Positions 31,801 through 61,311 of a stretch of 64,000 bases of DNA are shown here, in pieces. The DNA lies in assembly GCA_027460525.1 (NCBI GenBank), contig JAPZAS010000024.1, positions 62,001-126,000 on the forward strand, given 5' to 3'. The notes beneath the pieces are model-generated. The model had not been told where the DNA came from. It did no database searches and saw nothing but the letters and a program-made list of their open reading frames with translations. Source of the stretch: Candidatus Methanoperedens sp. GTDB taxonomy: Archaea; Halobacteriota; Methanosarcinia; Methanosarcinales; Methanoperedenaceae. The translations under genes were made by a program, and so were the position numbers. Position 1 is the first letter of the stretch, and the number at the start of each line of letters is the position of its first letter.

Positions 31801-32120
31801 AACTTTAAGAAAGTTTTATCAAAACGAAGGGGACGAACTTTAAGAAAGTTTTATCAAAACAAGAAGGACTGAACTTTAAGAAAGTTTTATCAAAACAAGA
31901 AGAACTGAACTTTAAGAAAGTTTTATCAAAACAAGAAGAACTGAACTTTAAGAAAGTTTTATCAAAACAAGAAGGACTGAACTTTAAGAAAGTTTTATCA
32001 AAACAAGAAGGACTGAACTTTAAGAAAGTTTTATCAAAACAAGAAGGACTGAACTTTAAGAGAGTTTTATCAAAACGAGGGGGACTGAACTTTAAGAAAG
32101 TTTTATCAAAAAGAGGGGAA
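31801..32120 (+). repeat. Nine tandem 36-bp units of the AACTTT palindromic module
   Basis: Units begin at 31801, 31836, 31872, 31908, 31944, 31980, 32016, 32052 and 32088; the first is 35 bp, the others 36. Each starts with the hairpin AACTTTAAGAAAGTT followed by TTATCAAAAC and AAGAAGGACTG-like spacer. Read in frame 3 the unit encodes NFKKVLSKQEGL, and the frame continues into the acetyltransferase. Confidence 0.9.
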
Positions 32121-34998: not shown

Positions 34999-35185
34999 TG
35001 AACATTAACAGCGAACTAATACGAACTCGTACGAACTCCGAGGGCGTGAGTTCGTAAAGCGACACCTCGCTTTATGAGATATAGGGTATGCAAAGCATAC
35101 CCCGCGTTTGATGGAACTTTTCCAAAGTTCCTTGATAAACCTTTTTCAAAGGTTTTTGATAAAACTTTCCTAAAGTTTTCAGTTC
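34999..35185 (-). repeat. Palindromic array related to the one at 61.1 kb
   Basis: In the gap before flpA (34883-35279, no ORF supported). Read on the minus strand, 35180 to 35054 gives hairpins AACTTTAGGAAAGTT, ACCTTTGAAAAAGGT, AACTTTGGAAAAGTTCC, GGGTATGCTTTGCATACCC and ATAAAGCGAGGTGTCGCTTTAC. Three of them occur in the same order and orientation at 61103-61172. The side at 34999-35035 is the AGTTCGTACGAGTTCGTATTAG spacer seen in the island. Confidence 0.8.
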
Positions 35186-44216: not shown

Positions 44217-46058
44217 TTACGTTGTGGATACTGCCACCGACTGGGCTCCGAGTACTTTGCCGCTGCCATCCACTAATTGAAGTGTGATCCTGTTCTTTAC
44301 AAGATCCAGCGATATGGGATGCGTTGGTGTCACGAACACTACAAAGGTGGGCTGAGCGCCCGAGTTGATGGTCAATCCAGTAGCTGGACCTATGATGGCT
44401 CCTGTTGCTGGATTGGTCTGGTTTACCTGAACTACCAGCCCACTTATCGAAGACGGTACGATCACATTGAAGCTTACACCAGTTGCATTGGCTCCGCCGA
44501 CATTCGTAGTTGCTACTGCAAATACAGTAGGTGTATTAACTGCTGTACTTACATCCAGCGAGGTTGACATCATGATAATATCAGCAGAGGGCACTGTGCT
44601 TGCTGATATGGTCAATGTGTTTACTCCACTTATCGGAGCAGTTGCTCCATTGGTGCTGGACACATTAAACGTCAATGGCGAGGTATCAAACGCTGATGTT
44701 GCATTGATGCCAACCACAAAGTTGGCTGTGCCGCCTGCTGATATGTTCACCGGTGCATTTAGTGCCTCTATGAACGCAGTGCCGTTCCATTGCCGAAATT
44801 GTGTGTTTACAGGCAAGCTGGATGCCTGTGTTATACTCACGCCAGTCGCAGTTCCTGTTCCGCCGTTGATCACTGACATGAATATCGTCACTGGCGTGCC
44901 TACCTGTGCATTCCTGCTGTTCGGGGTTATGGAAGATACCAGTAATGGCGTCGGTGTTGGTGTTGGAGTCGGTGCCGGAGTGGGTGTGATAGCTGCTTTG
45001 TATGCAAGCGGAAAGTAGTCAGTATTGTTCGCATCAAGGACATAAGGAGAGTCGCATATTCCATCGCCATTGTTATCTGCGCAGGTCTGGCTGAAGCCTG
45101 TGCCGCCTGGGTTTGCCCAGACGTTGCCGCCAAGGTATGCCCCTCCTATGATGTTGGTGCCTATTATTTTGGTGGCGTTCCAGTAGTTAGGAGAATCTGG
45201 AAATGCGTTGCCATAAAAGTATGCGCTGATATAACTGTTATTGGTATTGTAAAAAAAGTTGTTATAAATACTATTGTTGGTGGAACCGCTGAGGTATATT
45301 CCATAGTTGCTGTTCCAGTTTGCGGTGTTGCTAATTAGGGTGTTGTTATTACTGGTAAATGGAGTGCCGATAGCGAAAGCTAAGTCAATGCGGATTCCAA
45401 CGCCGTTCGAGTTTGCGGTGTTATTAGTTAGGGTATTGCTGCTGGAACCGCCGATAGAGATTCCACCGCTATTCGAGTTTGCAGTGTTGCTAGTTAGGAC
45501 GTTGTTGCTGCTAAGATAGAGGTCTATTCCACCGTTATTCGAATTTGCGGTGTTGTTAGTTAAGGTATTGTTGCTGGAGGCGAGGAGGTATATTCCAGAG
45601 TTGCTATTCGAATTTATGGTGTTGTTAGTTAAGGTGTTGTTGCTGGAACTGCGGATGTATATTCCATAGTAGTCCGAGTTTGTGGTGTTGTTAATTATAC
45701 TTCCATTTAGTGCGTTAGTGTAAAATATGCCAGTATCCCATTCAGTTACTATCAAATTTTTAACAGTTACATTTGTGAGGTTATAAACAAAGACGCCGGC
45801 GGTGTCTGCAGCATCCACTCCATCAATAGTATAGCCAGCGCCGTCAAAAATAACGTTACTTGAAGTGATATTAATGCAAGTATTGGTCGTGCTGTTTACT
45901 ATGTCCTGGGTGAGCACATAAGTACCCTGCGAGGAAATCGTAGTGCATGCGTCTATTGGCGTTGCCGCCCCCGCTCCACCCGCCAGCAATAATACCAGCG
46001 CCGTTATCCCAACCGCAATCCTGGGGGCACGCCCTCCGTGTATGCTATTCAATACCAT
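44217..46058 (-). CDS. Secreted NosD-like beta-helix surface protein, paralogue 1
   Basis: A 613-aa exported protein. Signal peptide: GGRAPRIAVGITALVLLLAGG. Residues from about 50 to 290 form a right-handed beta helix of NosD/pectate-lyase type, seen as repeats SSNNTLTNNTANSN and SGIYL. A Cys pair (TCADNNGDGICDSPY) marks the end of the helix. A TPTP linker then leads to two CARDB-like repeats (NAQVGTPVTIFMSVINGG). It ends GAQSVAVSTT without an anchor. GGTGG precedes the ATG. Last gene of a three-gene minus-strand operon (7-nt gap). Confidence 0.85.
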   Translation of the reverse strand: MVLNSIHGGRAPRIAVGITALVLLLAGGAGAATPIDACTTISSQGTYVLTQDIVNSTTNTCINITSSNVIFDGAGYTIDGVDAADTAGVFVYNLTNVTVKNLIVTEWDTGIFYTNALNGSIINNTTNSDYYGIYIRSSSNNTLTNNTINSNSNSGIYLLASSNNTLTNNTANSNNGGIDLYLSSNNVLTSNTANSNSGGISIGGSSSNTLTNNTANSNGVGIRIDLAFAIGTPFTSNNNTLISNTANWNSNYGIYLSGSTNNSIYNNFFYNTNNSYISAYFYGNAFPDSPNYWNATKIIGTNIIGGAYLGGNVWANPGGTGFSQTCADNNGDGICDSPYVLDANNTDYFPLAYKAAITPTPAPTPTPTPTPLLVSSITPNSRNAQVGTPVTIFMSVINGGTGTATGVSITQASSLPVNTQFRQWNGTAFIEALNAPVNISAGGTANFVVGINATSAFDTSPLTFNVSSTNGATAPISGVNTLTISASTVPSADIIMMSTSLDVSTAVNTPTVFAVATTNVGGANATGVSFNVIVPSSISGLVVQVNQTNPATGAIIGPATGLTINSGAQPTFVVFVTPTHPISLDLVKNRITLQLVDGSGKVLGAQSVAVSTT

Positions 46059-46065
46059 TTTCCAC

Positions 46066-48753
46066 CTACGTCGTTGATACCGCCACCGATTGTGCTCCGA
46101 TTATCTTCCCGCTGCCATCTTTCAATTGAAGCGTAATCCTGTTGTTTGCAGGGTCGTTGGCTATCGGCTGCATTGGCGTTACGAACACTGCAAAGGTCGG
46201 AGTAGCGCCCACGTTAATGGTCAAACCTGCTGCTGGACCCTTGATCGTTCCGTTTGCTGGATAGGTTTCATTTACATGATAAGATAATCCGCTTATCGAA
46301 GTCGGCACGCTCAAGACCAAGCTTACACCAGTTGCATTGGCTCCGCCGACATTCGTAGTTGCTACTGCAAATACAGTAGGTGTATTAACTGCTGTACTTA
46401 CATCCAGCGAGGTTGACATCATGATAATATCAGCAGAGGGCACCGTACTTGCTGAGAGGGTCAGCGTATTTACTCCACTTATCGGAGCAGTTGCCTCGTT
46501 GGTGCTGGACACGTTGAATGTCAGTGAAGAACTATTAAACGCTGATGTTGCATTGATGCCAACCACAAAGTTGGCTGTGCCGCCTGCTGATATGTTCACC
46601 GGTGCATTTAGTGCCTCTATGAACGCAGTGCCGTTCCATTGCCGAACTTGTGTTTTTACAGGCAAGCTGGATGCCTGTGTTATGCTCACGTTAGTAGCTG
46701 TTGCCGATCCGCCGTTAATCACTGACATGAATATCGTCACTGGTGTGCCTACCTGTGCATTCCTGCAGTTTGGCGTTATGGAAGTTACCAGTAATGGCAT
46801 AGGTGTGATATTTGAAGGGTATGCAAGCGGCAGGTAGTCGATGTTATTTGCGTCAAGCGTGTATGTTGAATCGCAAATCCCATCGCTATTGCTATCAGCG
46901 CATGTCTGACTGAAGCCTGTACCGTTCGGATAAGCCCAGATGTTGCCGCCTATGTAGGAGCCACCGATGATGTTTATGCCTGGAGTTTTGGTCGTGTTCC
47001 AGTTGTTGCTGCCGCCGCCGACACCAAAATTGTTGGTATTGTTGAAAAAGTTGTTATAAATGATGTTGTTGTTGCTGGAATCGTCCAGCAAGATACCGTG
47101 GCCGTTGTTCGAGGCACTGTTCCCAATAAATGTGTTGCTGTTGGAATTTAACAACCAGAAGCCACTACCAACATAAAAGAAGAATCGCCAGAGGAAGTTT
47201 GAGTTAGCAATGTTTCCGTTTAGCGTGTTATTAATGGAATCATAGAGAGCGATACCGTTGACGTTGTTCGAGGCATCGTTATCACTCAGCCTGTTGTTAG
47301 TGGAAGAGGAAAGAGAGATTCCATCACCATTCGAACTTGCAGTGTTATTGGTTAAAGTGTTGTTGCTGGAAGTAGAAAGATAGATTCCATAGCTGTTCGG
47401 ACTTGCAGTGTTATTGGTTAAAGTGTTGTTGCTGGAATATTTGAGATGGATTCCATAGTAGTTCGAGCTTGCAGTGTTGTTTATAACATTGTTGTTTTCA
47501 GAATATCCCAGCAATAAACCATCCCTATTGTTATTTAAGGTCACATTTTGTATATTTGAGTTGCTGGTATTCCAGAAAAGAACTCCTGGATAATTATTCA
47601 TAAATGTGCTGTCTTTCAGAGTGATGTCATTACAGTTAATGCAGCCAAACCAGCCTGCATTTGTGCTCAGGTCATATGTTACCCCAGAAGCCCCTATTAT
47701 ATAGTAAACAGGTTTTCCATTCACAGTATTCGAAGTATCAATGCTCTGAATGAAATGAGAATCTGTTGATCCATCTATATTGAAATTCAATGGGTTTCCC
47801 TTCATGTTGTTTCCTGAAAGGCTGCTATTGCTGGAAGAGTCAAGCTTGATGCCGTAGTTTCCGTTGTTTGAGGCATTGTTTCCAATCAGTGTGTTATTGC
47901 TGGAAGATGAAAGAATGATACCGGTACCATCATTATCGATGTTGCCTCCTTGGTTTCCGTTGTTCGAGGCATTGTTTCCAATCAGTGTGTTATTGCTGGA
48001 AGATGAAAGAGTAATGCCAGTACCATCATCAGGATGGAATTGGTGGAGGTTGTTCGAGGCAATGTTGCCGTTTAGCATGTTATTATTGGAATTGTAGAGA
48101 CCGATGCCGAAGGGGTTGTTTGAGACATTGTTTCCAATCAATGTGTTGTTGCTGGAAGAGTTAAGATAGATGCCATAAGAGAGATAGATATAATAGCTAT
48201 TGCTCGAAGCAGTGTTGTTGCTCAGCATGTTGCTGCTGGAAAAGTCCAGATAGATGCCATAGCTATTGTTTGAAGCAGTGTTGTTGCTCAGCGTGTTGTT
48301 GCTGGAAGAATACAGCCAGAAGCCGATCAGGTTGTTAGATGCAATGTTGCTTTTGATTATATTATTGTTCGATATTAATTTAATTCCATTATATAAATGG
48401 CTGCCTGTTTTTGCATTAAATCCATCAATTATAACTCCATTAGCAGTTACAGTTATTGCATCCCCAAGTCCTGCAGTATTAATCACAGGCAATCCGCCTC
48501 CGCTATCCTGCCCCTTCAACTCCAATTGTTTGTTTACAGTCACCGTTTCATAATACGTTCCGCTGTAAACAAGAATGGTATCCCCGGCACTCGCCGCATT
48601 TATTGCCTTTTGTATGCTCGTATAATTTGCACCACCGCTGGCATTGACTGTCAGCGTCGCAGCACCAGCGCCACCCGGCAGGAGTAAGACCAGCGCCGTT
48701 ATTCCCACCGCAATCCCGAGAGCACGCCCTCCGTGTATGCTATTCAATACCAT
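46066..48753 (-). CDS. Secreted NosD-like beta-helix surface protein, paralogue 2
   Basis: The longest of the set, 895 aa. After the signal peptide (GGRALGIAVGITALVLLLPGG) comes a pectate-lyase-like opening (GGANYTSIQKAINAASAGDTIL) that the other paralogues lack. About 20 coils with the motif SSNNTLIGNNASNNG follow. Then come the CADSNSDGICDSTY loop and two CARDB-like repeats. Nearly identical 3' domain with paralogue 1 (SADIIMMSTSLDVSTAVNTP), showing recent duplication or gene conversion. 8-nt gap to the upstream gene. Confidence 0.85.
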   Translation of the reverse strand: MVLNSIHGGRALGIAVGITALVLLLPGGAGAATLTVNASGGANYTSIQKAINAASAGDTILVYSGTYYETVTVNKQLELKGQDSGGGLPVINTAGLGDAITVTANGVIIDGFNAKTGSHLYNGIKLISNNNIIKSNIASNNLIGFWLYSSSNNTLSNNTASNNSYGIYLDFSSSNMLSNNTASSNSYYIYLSYGIYLNSSSNNTLIGNNVSNNPFGIGLYNSNNNMLNGNIASNNLHQFHPDDGTGITLSSSSNNTLIGNNASNNGNQGGNIDNDGTGIILSSSSNNTLIGNNASNNGNYGIKLDSSSNSSLSGNNMKGNPLNFNIDGSTDSHFIQSIDTSNTVNGKPVYYIIGASGVTYDLSTNAGWFGCINCNDITLKDSTFMNNYPGVLFWNTSNSNIQNVTLNNNRDGLLLGYSENNNVINNTASSNYYGIHLKYSSNNTLTNNTASPNSYGIYLSTSSNNTLTNNTASSNGDGISLSSSTNNRLSDNDASNNVNGIALYDSINNTLNGNIANSNFLWRFFFYVGSGFWLLNSNSNTFIGNSASNNGHGILLDDSSNNNIIYNNFFNNTNNFGVGGGSNNWNTTKTPGINIIGGSYIGGNIWAYPNGTGFSQTCADSNSDGICDSTYTLDANNIDYLPLAYPSNITPMPLLVTSITPNCRNAQVGTPVTIFMSVINGGSATATNVSITQASSLPVKTQVRQWNGTAFIEALNAPVNISAGGTANFVVGINATSAFNSSSLTFNVSSTNEATAPISGVNTLTLSASTVPSADIIMMSTSLDVSTAVNTPTVFAVATTNVGGANATGVSLVLSVPTSISGLSYHVNETYPANGTIKGPAAGLTINVGATPTFAVFVTPMQPIANDPANNRITLQLKDGSGKIIGAQSVAVSTT

Positions 48754-48761
48754 TTTTCCAC

Positions 48762-50744
48762 CTATGTCGTTGATACCGCCACTGACTGCGCTCCGATTAT
48801 CTTCCCGCTGCCATCCATGAGTTCTAGTATTATCCTGTTGTTTGCTGGATCGAAGGCTATCGGGTGCGTTGGTGTCAGGAACACGGCAAAAGTCGGCTGA
48901 TCGCCAGCGTTGATGGTCAACTCAATTGCCGGACCGATGATTGCTCCGGTTGTTGGATTGGTTTGGTTCACCTGAATTGCCAATCCTGTCATCGAATCCG
49001 GTACGACCACATTAAAGCTTACATTGGTTGCATTTACTGCCCCCACATTTGTAGTAGCCACTGCAAAGGCTGTAGGTGTCTTAACTGGTGTACTCACGTT
49101 CAGTGATGTGGATTCCATCACGACATCGGCATAAGGTGTGACAGTTCCTGAGATTGTCAATGCGTTAACTCCGTTTATAGGCGCAGTTGCCCCGTTGGTG
49201 CTGGAAACGTTGAATGTCATTGGCGAACTTGGAAACAATGCCGTTACATCGATAGTTAATACAAAGTGAACTGTTTCTCCTCCAATTATATTCACTGGCG
49301 TGTCAGGCACACCTGTGAATGTTTTGCTTCCATCCCATGGCTGGTAGTGTATTATTGCAGGCAGATTGGAGGCTTGTGAGATACTCACGTTGGTTGCAGT
49401 TGCTGTTCCGCCATTGATAATTGACAGGTATAAAGTAATAGGCACGCCTATCTGCGCAATTCTACTATTTGGGCTTGTGGCGAAGACTAAGTCCAGGGCA
49501 GGTGCTAGCGGCAGGTAATCAATATTGCTACTATAGAGCGTATATGGCAAATCGCATATCCCATCTCCATCCGCATCGGTGCAGGTCTGGCTAAAGCCTG
49601 TGCCGCTTGGGTTCGCCCAGAAATTGCCGCCGAGGTAGGGGCCACCGACGATGTTTGTACCTGATGTTTTAGTTGTGTTCCATTTGTTTGGAGCGTCGGT
49701 ATAAGCATTATTGTAGTTGTTGAAGATGTTGTTTGAAATGGCATTGTTGGAACCACCCAGATAGATGCCAGCGCGGAAGTTCTGGTTTGCAGTGTTATTG
49801 GTTAGGATGTTGTTGCTGGAATACGCCAGATCAATGCCGTATACGTTCCCGTTAGCAGTGTTGCCGCTCAGAGTGTTGTTGCTGGAATACTCTATACCAA
49901 TGCCATCGCCCCACCACCTCGAGGACTCTACAACGCCGTTTGAGTTTGCAGTGTTATTAATTAGGATATTGTTGCTGGAAGAACTTAGATAGATGCCGGT
50001 GCTGCCGCTCAGGGTATTGTTATTAAAGTAGAAGCTGATGCCATACCTGTTCGAGTTAGCAGTGTTGCCGCTCAGAGTGTTGTTGCTGGAAGAACCCAGA
50101 TAGATGCCGTAATTCTCGTTCGAGTTAGCAGTGTTGCCGCTCAAAGTGTTGTTGCTGGAAGAACCCAGATAAATGCCGTATACGTTGTTCGAGGCACTGT
50201 TGCCGCTAAGCGTGTTGTTGCTGGAATACTCTATATCAATGCCATCGCCCCACCACATCGCGGTCGCGAAGCTTACAATGCCGTTCGAGTTTGCAGTGTT
50301 ATTAATTAGGATAGTGTTGCTGGAAGAATTTAGATAAATGCCGTATATGTTGTTCGAGGCATTGTTGCCGCTCAGCGTGTTGTTGCTGGAAGAGGCCAGA
50401 TAGATGCCGGAGGAAAAGTTCCTGACATTCGTATTCTTTATCGTGACGCCGTTTCTTCCTGAAAGATAAATCCCGTTCCCTGTATAGTTGCTTCCCGCTA
50501 TTGTATGACCATTGCCGTTAAGGGTTATGCCGTCGCTATCTATCTCTATTGTTGCGGTTAAATCAGTTGTCAGCGTGCAGATCTTCGATGCGGCATTCCA
50601 CGTACCAATAGAGGTGCAGTCCCCGCCTGTTGCATTGTCGTTGATGAACCGCGCGCTCGCCCCTCCCGCCAACAGCAACACCAGCGCCGTTATTCCCACC
50701 GAAATCCTGAGGGCACGCCCTCCGCACGTTTTATTCCCAGCCAT
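48762..50744 (-). CDS. Secreted NosD-like beta-helix surface protein, paralogue 3
   Basis: A 660-aa exported protein and first gene of the operon. Signal peptide GGRALRISVGITALVLLLAGG. DSDGITLNGNGHTIAGSNYTGNGIYLSG opens the beta helix, whose coils read SSSNNTLSGNTANSN. The Asp-Gly loop CTDADGDGICDLPY has the same form as in the other two. The CARDB-like repeats are more diverged (NSRIAQIGVPITLYLSIIN). Sequons for N-glycosylation are very frequent. Probably part of the cell envelope or matrix; binding target unknown. Confidence 0.85.
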   Translation of the reverse strand: MAGNKTCGGRALRISVGITALVLLLAGGASARFINDNATGGDCTSIGTWNAASKICTLTTDLTATIEIDSDGITLNGNGHTIAGSNYTGNGIYLSGRNGVTIKNTNVRNFSSGIYLASSSNNTLSGNNASNNIYGIYLNSSSNTILINNTANSNGIVSFATAMWWGDGIDIEYSSNNTLSGNSASNNVYGIYLGSSSNNTLSGNTANSNENYGIYLGSSSNNTLSGNTANSNRYGISFYFNNNTLSGSTGIYLSSSSNNILINNTANSNGVVESSRWWGDGIGIEYSSNNTLSGNTANGNVYGIDLAYSSNNILTNNTANQNFRAGIYLGGSNNAISNNIFNNYNNAYTDAPNKWNTTKTSGTNIVGGPYLGGNFWANPSGTGFSQTCTDADGDGICDLPYTLYSSNIDYLPLAPALDLVFATSPNSRIAQIGVPITLYLSIINGGTATATNVSISQASNLPAIIHYQPWDGSKTFTGVPDTPVNIIGGETVHFVLTIDVTALFPSSPMTFNVSSTNGATAPINGVNALTISGTVTPYADVVMESTSLNVSTPVKTPTAFAVATTNVGAVNATNVSFNVVVPDSMTGLAIQVNQTNPTTGAIIGPAIELTINAGDQPTFAVFLTPTHPIAFDPANNRIILELMDGSGKIIGAQSVAVSTT

Positions 50745-55633: not shown

Positions 55634-56770
55634 TTGAGTATCATGAGTCCGGTATCTGTTATAATCCCCTGCATGAACGAGGAAAAAACAATCGGGGCCG
55701 TCATTAGTAAAGCTAAATCGACCTTAATGCAGGAGGGACTGGAAGGGGAAATAATAGTATCAGATAATTCCACAGATAATTCAAGGGATATCGCCAGAAA
55801 GATGGGAGCTAAAATTATAATTCCTCAAAAAAACGGATACGGTAGCGCCTACTTGGAAGGTATCAGGCATGCTAAAGGAACATATCTTATACTGGCTGAT
55901 GCCGACGATACCTACGACCTGAAAGAGATGCCCGGGTTATTAAAACCCCTGCTTTCAGGCGAAGCCGACTTCGTCATGGGCACACGGTTGAAGGGGGAAA
56001 TCAAGAAAAACTCCATGCCCTGGCTGCACAGGTACATCGGGAATCCTTTGTTGACAGGAACCCTGAACTGGCTTTTTAAAACAAAATTGAGCGACGCCCA
56101 TTGCGGTATGCGCGCCATAACAAGAGACGCTTATGAAAAGCTTGATATGAAAAGCGAAGGGATGGAATTTGCAAGCGAAATGATAATTGAAGCTGCAAAG
56201 AAAAAACTTCGAATAACCGAAGTACCTATCACCTATTATCCAAGACAAACACCTTCCAAGCTCCACTCCTGGGGCGATGGATGGCGGCATCTGCGCTTCA
56301 TGATGCTTTATAATCCAACCCCCTTTTTCTACTTTCCGGGTTTATTATTATTCGCACTCGGCGCATTTATGACCCTTGCCCTGCGGCTGCGGGGCAATGT
56401 GGAGATAACCGGACTCCATTCCTTCATTCTGGGCAGCATGCTTGCGATAATAGGAACGCAGATGATAGCTACGGGCAGTTATATGAAAGTTTACGGAATA
56501 ATTCATAATAAAATAGAGAAAGACGGATTGACCGCAAAAATCCTGGATTATCATTCTCTTGAACTCGGGCTTGTGCTCGGGTTATTATTGTTCTTCGCAG
56601 GGATAGTTTTAGGTTCAAATATTCTCTTCAAATGGATCTCCTCAGGATATGGTTCCCTTTCAGAAGTGGGAAATGCAGTAATCTCCATGGTGCTCGCTGC
56701 GCTCGGCATCCAGATAATCTTTTCAGCGCTCATTATCAGCATTTTTATGTTAGAAAAAAAGGATACATGA
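55634..56770 (+). CDS. Glycosyltransferase family 2, dolichol-phosphate-sugar synthase-like
   Basis: A 378-aa protein with an N-terminal GT-A domain: VSVIIPCMNEEKTIGAVI, VSDNSTDNSRDIARKMGAKI and LILADADDTYDL (DxD). SDAHCGMRAITRDAYEKL follows. From residue 240 on it has four hydrophobic helices. It most likely charges dolichol phosphate with a sugar for AglB. Its TGA stop is part of the ATGA that begins the 23-bp palindromic micro-ORF. Confidence 0.88.
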   Translation: MSIMSPVSVIIPCMNEEKTIGAVISKAKSTLMQEGLEGEIIVSDNSTDNSRDIARKMGAKIIIPQKNGYGSAYLEGIRHAKGTYLILADADDTYDLKEMPGLLKPLLSGEADFVMGTRLKGEIKKNSMPWLHRYIGNPLLTGTLNWLFKTKLSDAHCGMRAITRDAYEKLDMKSEGMEFASEMIIEAAKKKLRITEVPITYYPRQTPSKLHSWGDGWRHLRFMMLYNPTPFFYFPGLLLFALGAFMTLALRLRGNVEITGLHSFILGSMLAIIGTQMIATGSYMKVYGIIHNKIEKDGLTAKILDYHSLELGLVLGLLLFFAGIVLGSNILFKWISSGYGSLSEVGNAVISMVLAALGIQIIFSALIISIFMLEKKDT

Positions 56771-56793
56771 AAAACTTTAGGAAAGTTTTATGA
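56767..56793 (+). other. 8-codon micro-ORF formed by a single palindromic module between ATGA overlaps
   Basis: ATGA at 56767 contains the stop of the upstream gene, and ATGA at 56790 the start of the next. Between them is the perfect palindrome AAAACTTTAGGAAAGTTTT (8-bp arms, 3-bp loop). Reading from the first ATG gives MKNFRKVL and a stop at 56791-56793. Removing the 19-bp palindrome and one ATGA restores a plain 4-bp overlap of the two glycosyltransferase genes. Confidence 0.8.
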
Positions 56794-57938
56794 AACTCGC
56801 TTTCGTCTACGATGCTGTTTATCCCTGGGTAAAAGGGGGCGCAGAGAAACGTATATACGAACTTGGAAAAAGGCTTGCAAAAGAGGGTAACGAAGTCCAT
56901 GTTTTTGGGGTTAAGTGGTGGGAAGGCGGCGATATGATAAAGAACGAAGGCATGGTGCTGCACGGCGTTTGCAGGCGGATGGAGCTATACGTTAACGGCA
57001 GGCGCTCAATTCCCGAGGCGGTAATATTCTCATTTAAGCTTTTCCTTCCTCTGATTAGAGAAAAATATGATGTGATTGATGTCAGCGCATTCCCGTATTT
57101 TTCATGTTTTACCGTGAAACTCGTATCGATTCTCAGGAGAACTCCTATGATAACCACGTGGCATGAGGTGTGGGGGGATTACTGGTATGAATATTTAGGG
57201 TGGTGGGGTTTTTTTGGGAAGGTAGTAGAATTTTTTGCATCGAAATTGCCTTATATGTCAATCGCGGTGTCGGCTTTGACGAAAAGGAATCTCAGGTTAC
57301 TCGGGGTCAAGGATGAAAACGTACATATCATACCAAACGGTATCGAATTAAAAAGGATTGCCGAAATAATGCCATCACCCGATGAATGCGATATAATATT
57401 TACAGGGCGGCTTATCAGGGAGAAGAACGTGGATGTATTGCTTCAAGCTGTGGGTTATGTTAAGGAAACTATACCAGATGTTAAATGCCACATCATAGGC
57501 GATGGACCTGAGAACGAAAAGCTTGCCGGGCTTGCTGTGGAGCATGGACTTCTGGGTAACGTCAGGTTCTTTGGGTTCATGGGTTATGAGGAGGTGATAG
57601 CGAGGATCAAGTCCTCAAAAATACTGGTGCTGCCCTCCAGCCGCGAAGGGTTCGGAATGGTGGTAATAGAGGCTTTTGCTTGCGGGGTTCCTGTCATCAC
57701 GGTCAAAGGAGAGCGCAACGCCGCCTCTTCGCTTGTTAGCGAAAAAACCGGCTTGGTGGTGAACCTTGATGCGGAAGAACTTGGCAGTGCTATAAGCACA
57801 TTAATCGGGAATGACGTATTTCGTGAAAAGCTGGCTGCGTCCGCTATGGATGCTGCCCAGGAATATGATTGGGACAGGATAGTCAGACAGGCATCATGCA
57901 TGTACGAAGAACATTTATTAAAATCGATGAGAACATAA
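56790..57938 (+). CDS. Glycosyltransferase family 4
   Basis: A 382-aa GT-B enzyme: MKLAFVYDAVYPWVKGGAEKR opens the N-terminal domain (G-G-A-E loop). The C-terminal domain has IIFTGRLIREKNVDVLL, CHIIGDGPENEKL and SSREGFGMVVIEAFACGVPVI, with the E-x7-E motif that binds the sugar nucleotide. Cytosolic or membrane-associated; it would extend the lipid-linked glycan or O-antigen-like polymer. The acceptor is unknown. Ends 2 nt before the next gene. Confidence 0.9.
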   Translation: MKLAFVYDAVYPWVKGGAEKRIYELGKRLAKEGNEVHVFGVKWWEGGDMIKNEGMVLHGVCRRMELYVNGRRSIPEAVIFSFKLFLPLIREKYDVIDVSAFPYFSCFTVKLVSILRRTPMITTWHEVWGDYWYEYLGWWGFFGKVVEFFASKLPYMSIAVSALTKRNLRLLGVKDENVHIIPNGIELKRIAEIMPSPDECDIIFTGRLIREKNVDVLLQAVGYVKETIPDVKCHIIGDGPENEKLAGLAVEHGLLGNVRFFGFMGYEEVIARIKSSKILVLPSSREGFGMVVIEAFACGVPVITVKGERNAASSLVSEKTGLVVNLDAEELGSAISTLIGNDVFREKLAASAMDAAQEYDWDRIVRQASCMYEEHLLKSMRT

Positions 57939-60034: not shown

Positions 60035-61099
60035 ATGAAAGCTTTAATATTAAGCGGCGGCAAAGGAACTCGACTGCGACCTTTAACCTTCACCACAGCG
60101 AAGCAACTTATTCCCGTGGCTAATAAACCTATTCTTGGTTATGTCCTCGACCAAACATCCCAGGCGGGAATAAAGGATACAGGTATAATAATTGCACCTG
60201 AGACAGGTGAATATGTCAAAGACTACGTAAAAGATGGCTCTCCGTGGGGAATAAAAGTTACATATATGCCTCAAGAACCTCTTGGTCTGGCTCATGCTGT
60301 AAAAACTGCGAGAAATTTCCTGGGAAACGAATCATTCGTAATGTGCCTGGGGGATAACCTTCTCGGAAAAGGGATAAATAATCTTGTGGATAAATTTAAC
60401 CTGGAAAAACTGGACGCTTTGATATTACTCAAAGAAGTTGAAAATCCAGGCAGTTTCGGGGTAGCGGTATTAGATAAAAAAGGAAATGTCATCAAACTCA
60501 TAGAAAAACCAAAAGAACCCCCCAGTAATTTAGCATTGGTGGGGGTGTATATATTTTCTCCAAGAATCCACGAAGCTATTGAGAGAATAAAACCTTCATT
60601 GCGCAATGAACTTGAGATTACGGATGCCATACAGGAATTAATCAATATGGGATGCAATGTTAAAAGCGAGATTCTCAACTCCTGGTGGCTTGATACAGGG
60701 AAAAAGGATGATATTTTAACAGCAAACAGTATCGTTCTGGATGAATATGTTAAAAATGAAATAAATGGGAGCCTGGATAATAAAAGTAAAGTTACAGGAA
60801 GGATAAAAATCGACACGGGTACCGTTGTTGTAAACAGCAGAATCCGCGGTCCTGTAGCGATAGGTAAGAACGCTCATATTGAGAACTCCTTCATAGGACC
60901 GTATACCAGTATAGGAGATAATACTAATATTTCCGATTCATCCATTGAACATTGTGTCATTCTCAATAACGTTCAGGTCAAAGGAATAGAGAGGCTGGAG
61001 GACAGTTTACTTGGAAAGGATGCAAAAGTTTTAAAAAACCATACCGGTCATAAAGCACTTAGATTGATGATAGGGGATTATTCGGAGATAGAGGTATGA
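60035..61099 (+). CDS. rmlA: Glucose-1-phosphate thymidylyltransferase, archaeal long form
   Basis: A 354-aa nucleotidyltransferase: LILSGGKGTRLRPLTFTTAKQL (nucleotide loop), FVMCLGDNLLGKG, LVGVYIFSPRIHEAIERIKPS and SWWLDTGKKDDIL. The C-terminal 100 residues form a left-handed beta helix (NSRIRGPVAIGKNAHIENS), as in the long RmlA/RfbA of archaea and actinobacteria. It makes dTDP-glucose, the first step to dTDP-L-rhamnose. Its stop lies in the ATGA at the start of the palindromic bridge. Confidence 0.92.
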   Translation: MKALILSGGKGTRLRPLTFTTAKQLIPVANKPILGYVLDQTSQAGIKDTGIIIAPETGEYVKDYVKDGSPWGIKVTYMPQEPLGLAHAVKTARNFLGNESFVMCLGDNLLGKGINNLVDKFNLEKLDALILLKEVENPGSFGVAVLDKKGNVIKLIEKPKEPPSNLALVGVYIFSPRIHEAIERIKPSLRNELEITDAIQELINMGCNVKSEILNSWWLDTGKKDDILTANSIVLDEYVKNEINGSLDNKSKVTGRIKIDTGTVVVNSRIRGPVAIGKNAHIENSFIGPYTSIGDNTNISDSSIEHCVILNNVQVKGIERLEDSLLGKDAKVLKNHTGHKALRLMIGDYSEIEV

Positions 61100-61311
61100 A
61101 AAACTTTAAGAAAGTTTTATCAAGGAACTTTGGAAAAGTTCCATCAAACGCGGGGTATGCTTTGCATACCCCAACACAGCGTGAACCGATGTTTCGGTTC
61201 TCAAACGACGGGTATGGCACGCCATACCCGAACACGCCCTCCCGAGGCGTGACTCGGGAAGGGGTATGCGCCATACCCCTATACGTCATAAAGGGGCGTA
61301 ACCCTTTATGA
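61096..61311 (+). other. Stop-free array of palindromic modules bridging rmlA and rmlC
   Basis: A 216-bp stretch from the ATGA at 61096 to the ATGA at 61308. It is made of at least seven hairpins in a row: AACTTTAAGAAAGTT, AACTTTGGAAAAGTT, GGGGTATGCTTTGCATACCC, GAACCGATGTTTCGGTTC, GGGTATGGCACGCCATACCC, CCTCCCGAGGCGTGACTCGG, GGGGTATGCGCCATACCCC and CATAAAGG..CCTTTATG. Yet one frame stays open for 71 codons (MKNFKKVLSRNFGKV ...) and overlaps both flanking genes by 4 nt. The peptide has no known domain. I treat it as a repeat that keeps translational coupling, not as a normal gene. Confidence 0.8.

Follow-up and report, generated by a model that had tools for sequence, protein, structure and literature searches.

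Hairpin-built mosaic repeats at start codons in Candidatus Methanoperedens carry a putative bridging reading frame

Two glycosyltransferase genes of the methane-oxidising archaeon Candidatus Methanoperedens are separated by two copies of ATGA with a 19-bp hairpin between them. A preliminary description of this junction had proposed that a 19-bp perfect palindrome inserted into a stop-start overlap, duplicated its 4-bp target and remade the junction around a micro-ORF, a behaviour for which it knew no described element. Is the junction an insertion, what was inserted, and what would such an insert do to the translation of its neighbours? In the window, by which we mean the whole stretch of 64,000 nt that was analysed, the junction consists of the following features:

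55640..56770, + strand: family-2 glycosyltransferase (GT2), AglJ-like, the upstream gene, with its TGA stop inside the 5' ATGA
56767..56770, + strand: 5' ATGA copy, GT2 stop and micro-ORF start; empty orthologous junctions have a single ATGA
56771..56789, + strand: hairpin module AAAACTTT-AGG-AAAGTTTT, from sequence and fold
56767..56793, + strand: micro-ORF MKNFRKVL*, putative bridging ORF between GT2 and GT4, from sequence
56790..56793, + strand: 3' ATGA copy, micro-ORF stop and GT4 start
56790..57938, + strand: GT4 glycosyltransferase, the downstream gene; orthologs in the genus are 54-77% identical and their junction is mostly an empty ATGA

The sequence at 56767-56793 (ATGAAAAACTTTAGGAAAGTTTTATGA) reads ATGA-AAAACTTTAGGAAAGTTTT-ATGA between the two glycosyltransferase genes, and the hairpin, its two ATGA flanks and the micro-ORF MKNFRKVL* are as first described. 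The palindrome is not a perfect one: an 8-bp stem (AAAACTTT/AAAGTTTT) encloses a 3-nt AGG loop, with a fold energy of -3.4 kcal/mol. AGGA in the loop forms a weak Shine-Dalgarno (SD)-like site 7 nt before the GT4 ATG (duplex with the anti-SD, -3.9 kcal/mol). The upstream gene scores 184.7 bits against NCBIfam TIGR04182, below the cut-off of 325. The module cannot be a chance occurrence in the window, since it has 15 matches there at up to 3 mismatches against 0.01 expected, and in the source genome AACTTTNNNAAAGTT occurs at 42 sites, its reversed control at 3.

The 19-bp hairpin is the 5' module of a family of mosaic palindromic repeats that is confined to Candidatus Methanoperedens. A genome catalogue of copies, built from pattern searches and fetched stretches, reveals elements of about 70-400 nt in a regular order: the 5' module ATGAAAAACTTTARGAAAGTTTTATCAA, then one or more other hairpins, among them GGGTATGCTTTGCATACCC, CACGTATGGCTTCGCCATACGTG and CCCTCCCGAGGCGTGACTCGGGA, and finally either CATAAAGCGAGGTGTCGCTTTATGA or CATAAAGGGGCGTAACCCTTTATGA as the terminal hairpin. 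The core module is present in 16 of the 34 genomes of the taxonomic family, and the terminal module in 15 of the 186 genomes of the order, all 15 belonging to the single genus Methanoperedens. When 84,980 species genomes were scanned for exact matches, 104 stretches were returned; those with named records come from Methanoperedens or from unplaced archaeal bins. Two modules searched in IMG/VR for viral carriers had no exact match. A full mosaic element lies 4.3 kb downstream of the GT2/GT4 junction, with a 71-aa bridging ORF and CATAAAGGGGCGTAACCCTTTATGA as its terminal hairpin:

61096..61311, + strand: complete mosaic element at the junction of rmlA and an RmlC-like gene, with ATGA at each end and several hairpin modules

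Orthologous junctions identify these elements as insertions. At GT4, empty orthologs keep one ATGA, as in GATAACAA|ATGAAA of genome G015, and the site is filled only in G000 (19 bp), G021 and G029, each with a different insert. Among close relatives, G010, G011 and G018 have an empty site and G021 and G029 a filled one, a pattern that requires either precise loss or repeated insertion. The RmlC junction likewise has one ATGA in G001 (GAGATAGAAGT|ATGAG), G010, G012, G017 and G022, and is filled in G000, G003 and G019, with ATGA on both sides and inserts of differing make-up. G001 and G003, close sisters in a three-protein tree, supply the most direct comparison: a single ATGA in the former, 76 bp between two ATGA in the latter. 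At the aIF2b, ArgH and DUF2073 junctions, empty starts are mostly ATGA and several genomes are filled exactly at the start codon. Insertion at a start codon, in sense orientation and with a 4-nt NTGA on both sides, is thus seen at five junctions. The proposal that the GT2/GT4 junction arose by insertion is upheld by the single-ATGA sites in related operons; rather than all carrying the same 19 bp, the relatives have other inserts or none. Seven of 28 genomes have a filled ArgH start, and these filled sites have an unusual 5' sequence, ATGAAAAAACTTTA, in common, so that part of their history is a single old insertion whose inner modules were later exchanged.

What was inserted at GT4 is a separate matter. 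ATGA-19-bp hairpin-ATGA occurs once among 31 genomes, at 56767-56793 only, and removing from a common 80-nt element the 57 nt between two copies of TTTAT yields exactly this form, in frame. For these two reasons the simplest origin, as judged from sequence, would be an in-frame 57-nt deletion of the 80-nt element through TTTAT microhomology, and the 19-bp unit, taken at first for the inserting entity, looks like a remnant of a longer mosaic element. That the palindrome inserted alone, as a minimal mobile unit making a 4-bp target duplication, would account for the clean ATGA-hairpin-ATGA arrangement and for the at least 16 empty orthologs; we consider it unlikely, given its single occurrence in 31 genomes and its exact correspondence to the deleted 80-nt element.

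In the short form and in the full elements alike, the 5' ATGA opens a reading frame. We analysed 67 distinct start-associated elements, choosing the 3' end blind to frame. The length from ATGA to ATGA is 2 mod 3 in 53 of them; no stop interrupts frame 0 in 52, against 1 and 6 for the other forward frames, and the first frame-0 stop falls no more than 19 nt from the next start in 63, against 0 and 5. The complete -4 nt arrangement, in which the frame of the 5' ATG ends in a TGA overlapping the next ATG, is present in the sequence of 51 elements (48 at offset +1 and three DUF2073 cases whose start had been set one codon late). Fourteen of the 67 are out of frame, and most of these miss the start by 9 or 19 nt, ending before it. 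Across the five orthologous junctions, the frame is kept by 18 of the 20 inserts that are intact, for lengths from 23 to 266 (p=2.3e-7), and it is kept in 46 of 55 start-associated copies versus 4 of 21 copies elsewhere (Fisher p=2.6e-7; p=0.015 with distinct lengths only), all these p-values being optimistic as copies are related by descent. The contrast between starts and other locations points to selection acting on the bridging frame rather than to a fixed property of the modules; an intrinsic module length can be discarded as the source of frame conservation, copies away from starts not being held at 2 mod 3. As read from sequence, both the reading frame and the stop-start overlap are remade by the insert, in line with the preliminary description, and because the small frame ends on the start of the next gene, insertions at start codons probably leave translation unbroken.

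Do these elements select stop-start junctions, as had been suggested? Of the 63 copies preceded by ATGA, 35 follow an ORF of 60 codons or more that terminates exactly in the 5' ATGA, and most of the others lie at non-overlapping starts. Occupied start codons without overlap, such as those of ArgH and DUF2073, rule out an exclusive use of stop-start overlaps. The part of the suggestion that holds is the association with start codons: ATGA-flanked copies are nearly all found there, a strong enrichment at ATGA starts. Some 5' copies are altered to ATAA, TTAA, TTGA or GTGA with a stop still present, while the 3' copy remains ATGA.

These positions bear on a neutral explanation, in which a selfish repeat inserts at ATGA anywhere and survives only where frame and start are kept, the bridging ORF merely avoiding harm. 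Consistent with it, the frame is preserved only where it matters, other copies reside within intergenic repeats away from starts, and one ATGA-flanked copy (L055) lies past the end of a gene, away from any start codon, with its frame broken. By a crude gene call, however, only 24 of the 678 ATGA of the window are at start codons against 158 in non-coding sequence, and yet ATGA-flanked copies sit nearly all at starts, so that mere tolerance, or ATGA specificity combined with purging from genes, is insufficient to explain the start bias; nor does a neutral repeat call for the strong SD supplied by the terminal module. We regard this explanation as a serious one whose chances are somewhat short of even.

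Two further occurrences of the modules in the window illustrate copies outside this arrangement:

31801..32111, + strand: tandem array of 8.7 copies of a 36-bp core hairpin module, directly after an upstream stop (TTGA)
35108..35179, - strand: three hairpin units nested in a distinct palindromic intergenic repeat, CGTACGAAC, with no start codon nearby

The array has one + frame open as 12-aa repeats (NFKKVLSKQEGL) that runs into the downstream coding sequence, and may be coding. The outer repeat of the second locus flanks the nested units as CGTACGAACTG|...|ACGAACTC; relatives have about a dozen parallel nested copies, so the mosaic may be carried along when this outer repeat spreads. In several Methanoperedens-type genomes the core module is located inside an ATCCGTG/CACGGAT intergenic repeat (L048, L051, L052, L087, L106). 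Mosaic elements of this family (L063, L066, L096, L110) also precede a short repeated ORF (MTEPFQDREIAG...), sitting at its start; the ORF seems to exist in multiple copies in one or more Methanoperedens-type genomes. The window further contains long tandem repeats with 66-69 bp units at 45406-50226, of which the part at 49999-50226 belongs to a repeat-rich ORF (48762-50744, - strand), probably a surface protein.

The terminal module adds a second translational signal. In full-length elements, the last hairpin places an SD (GAGGTG or AGGGG) at a distance of 7-11 nt upstream of the start codon. Its duplex with the anti-SD, a sequence found in the source genome, has an energy of -10.1 or -6.7 kcal/mol where the start is filled. 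Median energies at empty starts are about -3 at ArgH, aIF2b and RmlC, -3.8 at GT4 and -8.8 at DUF2073, so a gain in SD strength is not general, empty DUF2073 starts being already good. The same terminal hairpin folds at -14.8 kcal/mol and holds the start codon within its stem. Reinitiation coupling in archaea and bacteria requires overlaps or very short distances, and in archaea and E. coli translational coupling is nearly lost past about 20-40 nt (PMC10666635); an insertion without a bridging ORF should therefore uncouple the genes.

Taken together, we think it likely, on the strength of the sequences, that the Methanoperedens elements are mobile leader cassettes built of hairpins, which insert at a start ATGA and remake translational coupling, the 19-bp form being one short copy. 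As empty and filled orthologs show, a dispersed element inserts in sense orientation at the ATGA of a gene start and leaves ATGA on both sides. In the sequence, the 5' ATGA retains the stop of the upstream gene, where there is an overlap, and opens the bridging ORF, which continues through all hairpin modules to the TGA of the 3' ATGA; translation of this ORF is predicted. The ATG of this 3' copy starts the downstream gene, the bridging ORF thereby restoring a -4 nt overlap. With the start codon held in the terminal stem, de novo initiation is expected to be low, and opening of the hairpin that covers it is expected only during translation of the bridging ORF: a ribosome on this ORF would open the terminal hairpin, then reinitiate at the downstream gene. 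The element would act as a natural mobile bicistronic leader, and since translation would stay continuous across it, uncoupling and polarity would be avoided.

The stable hairpin over the start codon and the occupation of ArgH in 7 of the 28 genomes could also be read as signs of a regulatory leader, in which the string of hairpins and its ORF would have been co-opted to control the genes that follow, perhaps acting as a thermosensor or an attenuator. The neighbours of the elements are functionally unrelated (glycosyltransferases, aIF2b, ArgH, DUF2073, ferredoxin), close relatives differ in composition, many orthologs are empty, and all matches to known RNA families in Rfam fall below the gathering score. 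A regulatory role of this type appears quite improbable.

If the cassettes are mobile, what moves them? A MITE would have terminal inverted repeats and a target duplication. Compared in inverted sense, AAAACTTT.. at one end and ..CGCTTT/..CCCTTT at the other have no more than AAA in common; ATGA flanks are present, but they would look alike whether borne by the element or duplicated from the target. A REP transposase was rejected as the mover, as the distribution of Y1_Tnp (PF01797) does not track the elements: only a stop-containing fragment was found in G000 and none in the element-rich G029, and several such genes are present in element-poor genomes.

Several known systems resemble these elements in part. 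RPEs, the Rickettsia palindromic elements, are palindromic repeats compatible with a reading frame; they are found inside protein-coding genes, whereas the Methanoperedens copies studied lie between genes and form their own ORF. REP/BIME sequences are similarly short palindromic units arranged in mosaics, with many copies per genome and often between genes of one operon. REPs are, however, defined as extragenic (PMC12306157), and start-associated Methanoperedens copies are not, their conserved ORFs overlapping the next start and often the previous stop. Synthetic bicistronic designs (BCD) combine a short leader ORF, an internal SD and a stop-start overlap, by which ribosomes are carried past mRNA structure (PMC12548453, PMC5995908); the leader ORF, SD and overlap are shared, but BCD leaders are engineered and the Methanoperedens elements natural and dispersed through the genus.

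The closest counterparts are the mycobacterial MIRUs. Their target is DTGA, and ATGA, TTGA and GTGA are seen as flanks in Methanoperedens. According to a review (PMC12548453, citing Supply et al. 1997), MIRUs appear to be mobile and to insert at start codons, where an internal ORF is coupled to the gene at -4 nt, so the preliminary claim that no element with this behaviour had been described was wrong. The likeness is one of description and covers short dispersed repeats at start codons with a -4 nt internal ORF; the Methanoperedens elements differ in being archaeal, in their exchangeable hairpin modules that vary at one site, and in the SD of the last hairpin. No description of such repeats in Methanoperedens was found in the literature searched, in which subscription journals are mostly outside coverage. 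What is new is this archaeal, palindromic, hairpin-mosaic variant with an SD-bearing terminal hairpin; the behaviour itself is already known from MIRUs. More tentatively, the elements could form a class of archaeal mobile elements whose insertion is directed to translation starts, a plug-in bicistronic leader with a selected frame and an SD in the terminal hairpin, whose modules are swapped while frame and ends stay; this we offer as a possibility that is easier to doubt than to adopt.

The Methanoperedens elements extend to archaea the start-codon insertions that would rebuild translational coupling, for which mycobacteria are the sole precedent found. Sister species with empty and filled sites are natural experiments on the need for a bridging ORF in coupling, and the same pairs bear on how start-codon hairpins are read and on how archaeal operons tolerate insertions. 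In Methanoperedens genomes, the bridging ORFs are likely annotated as spurious small proteins.
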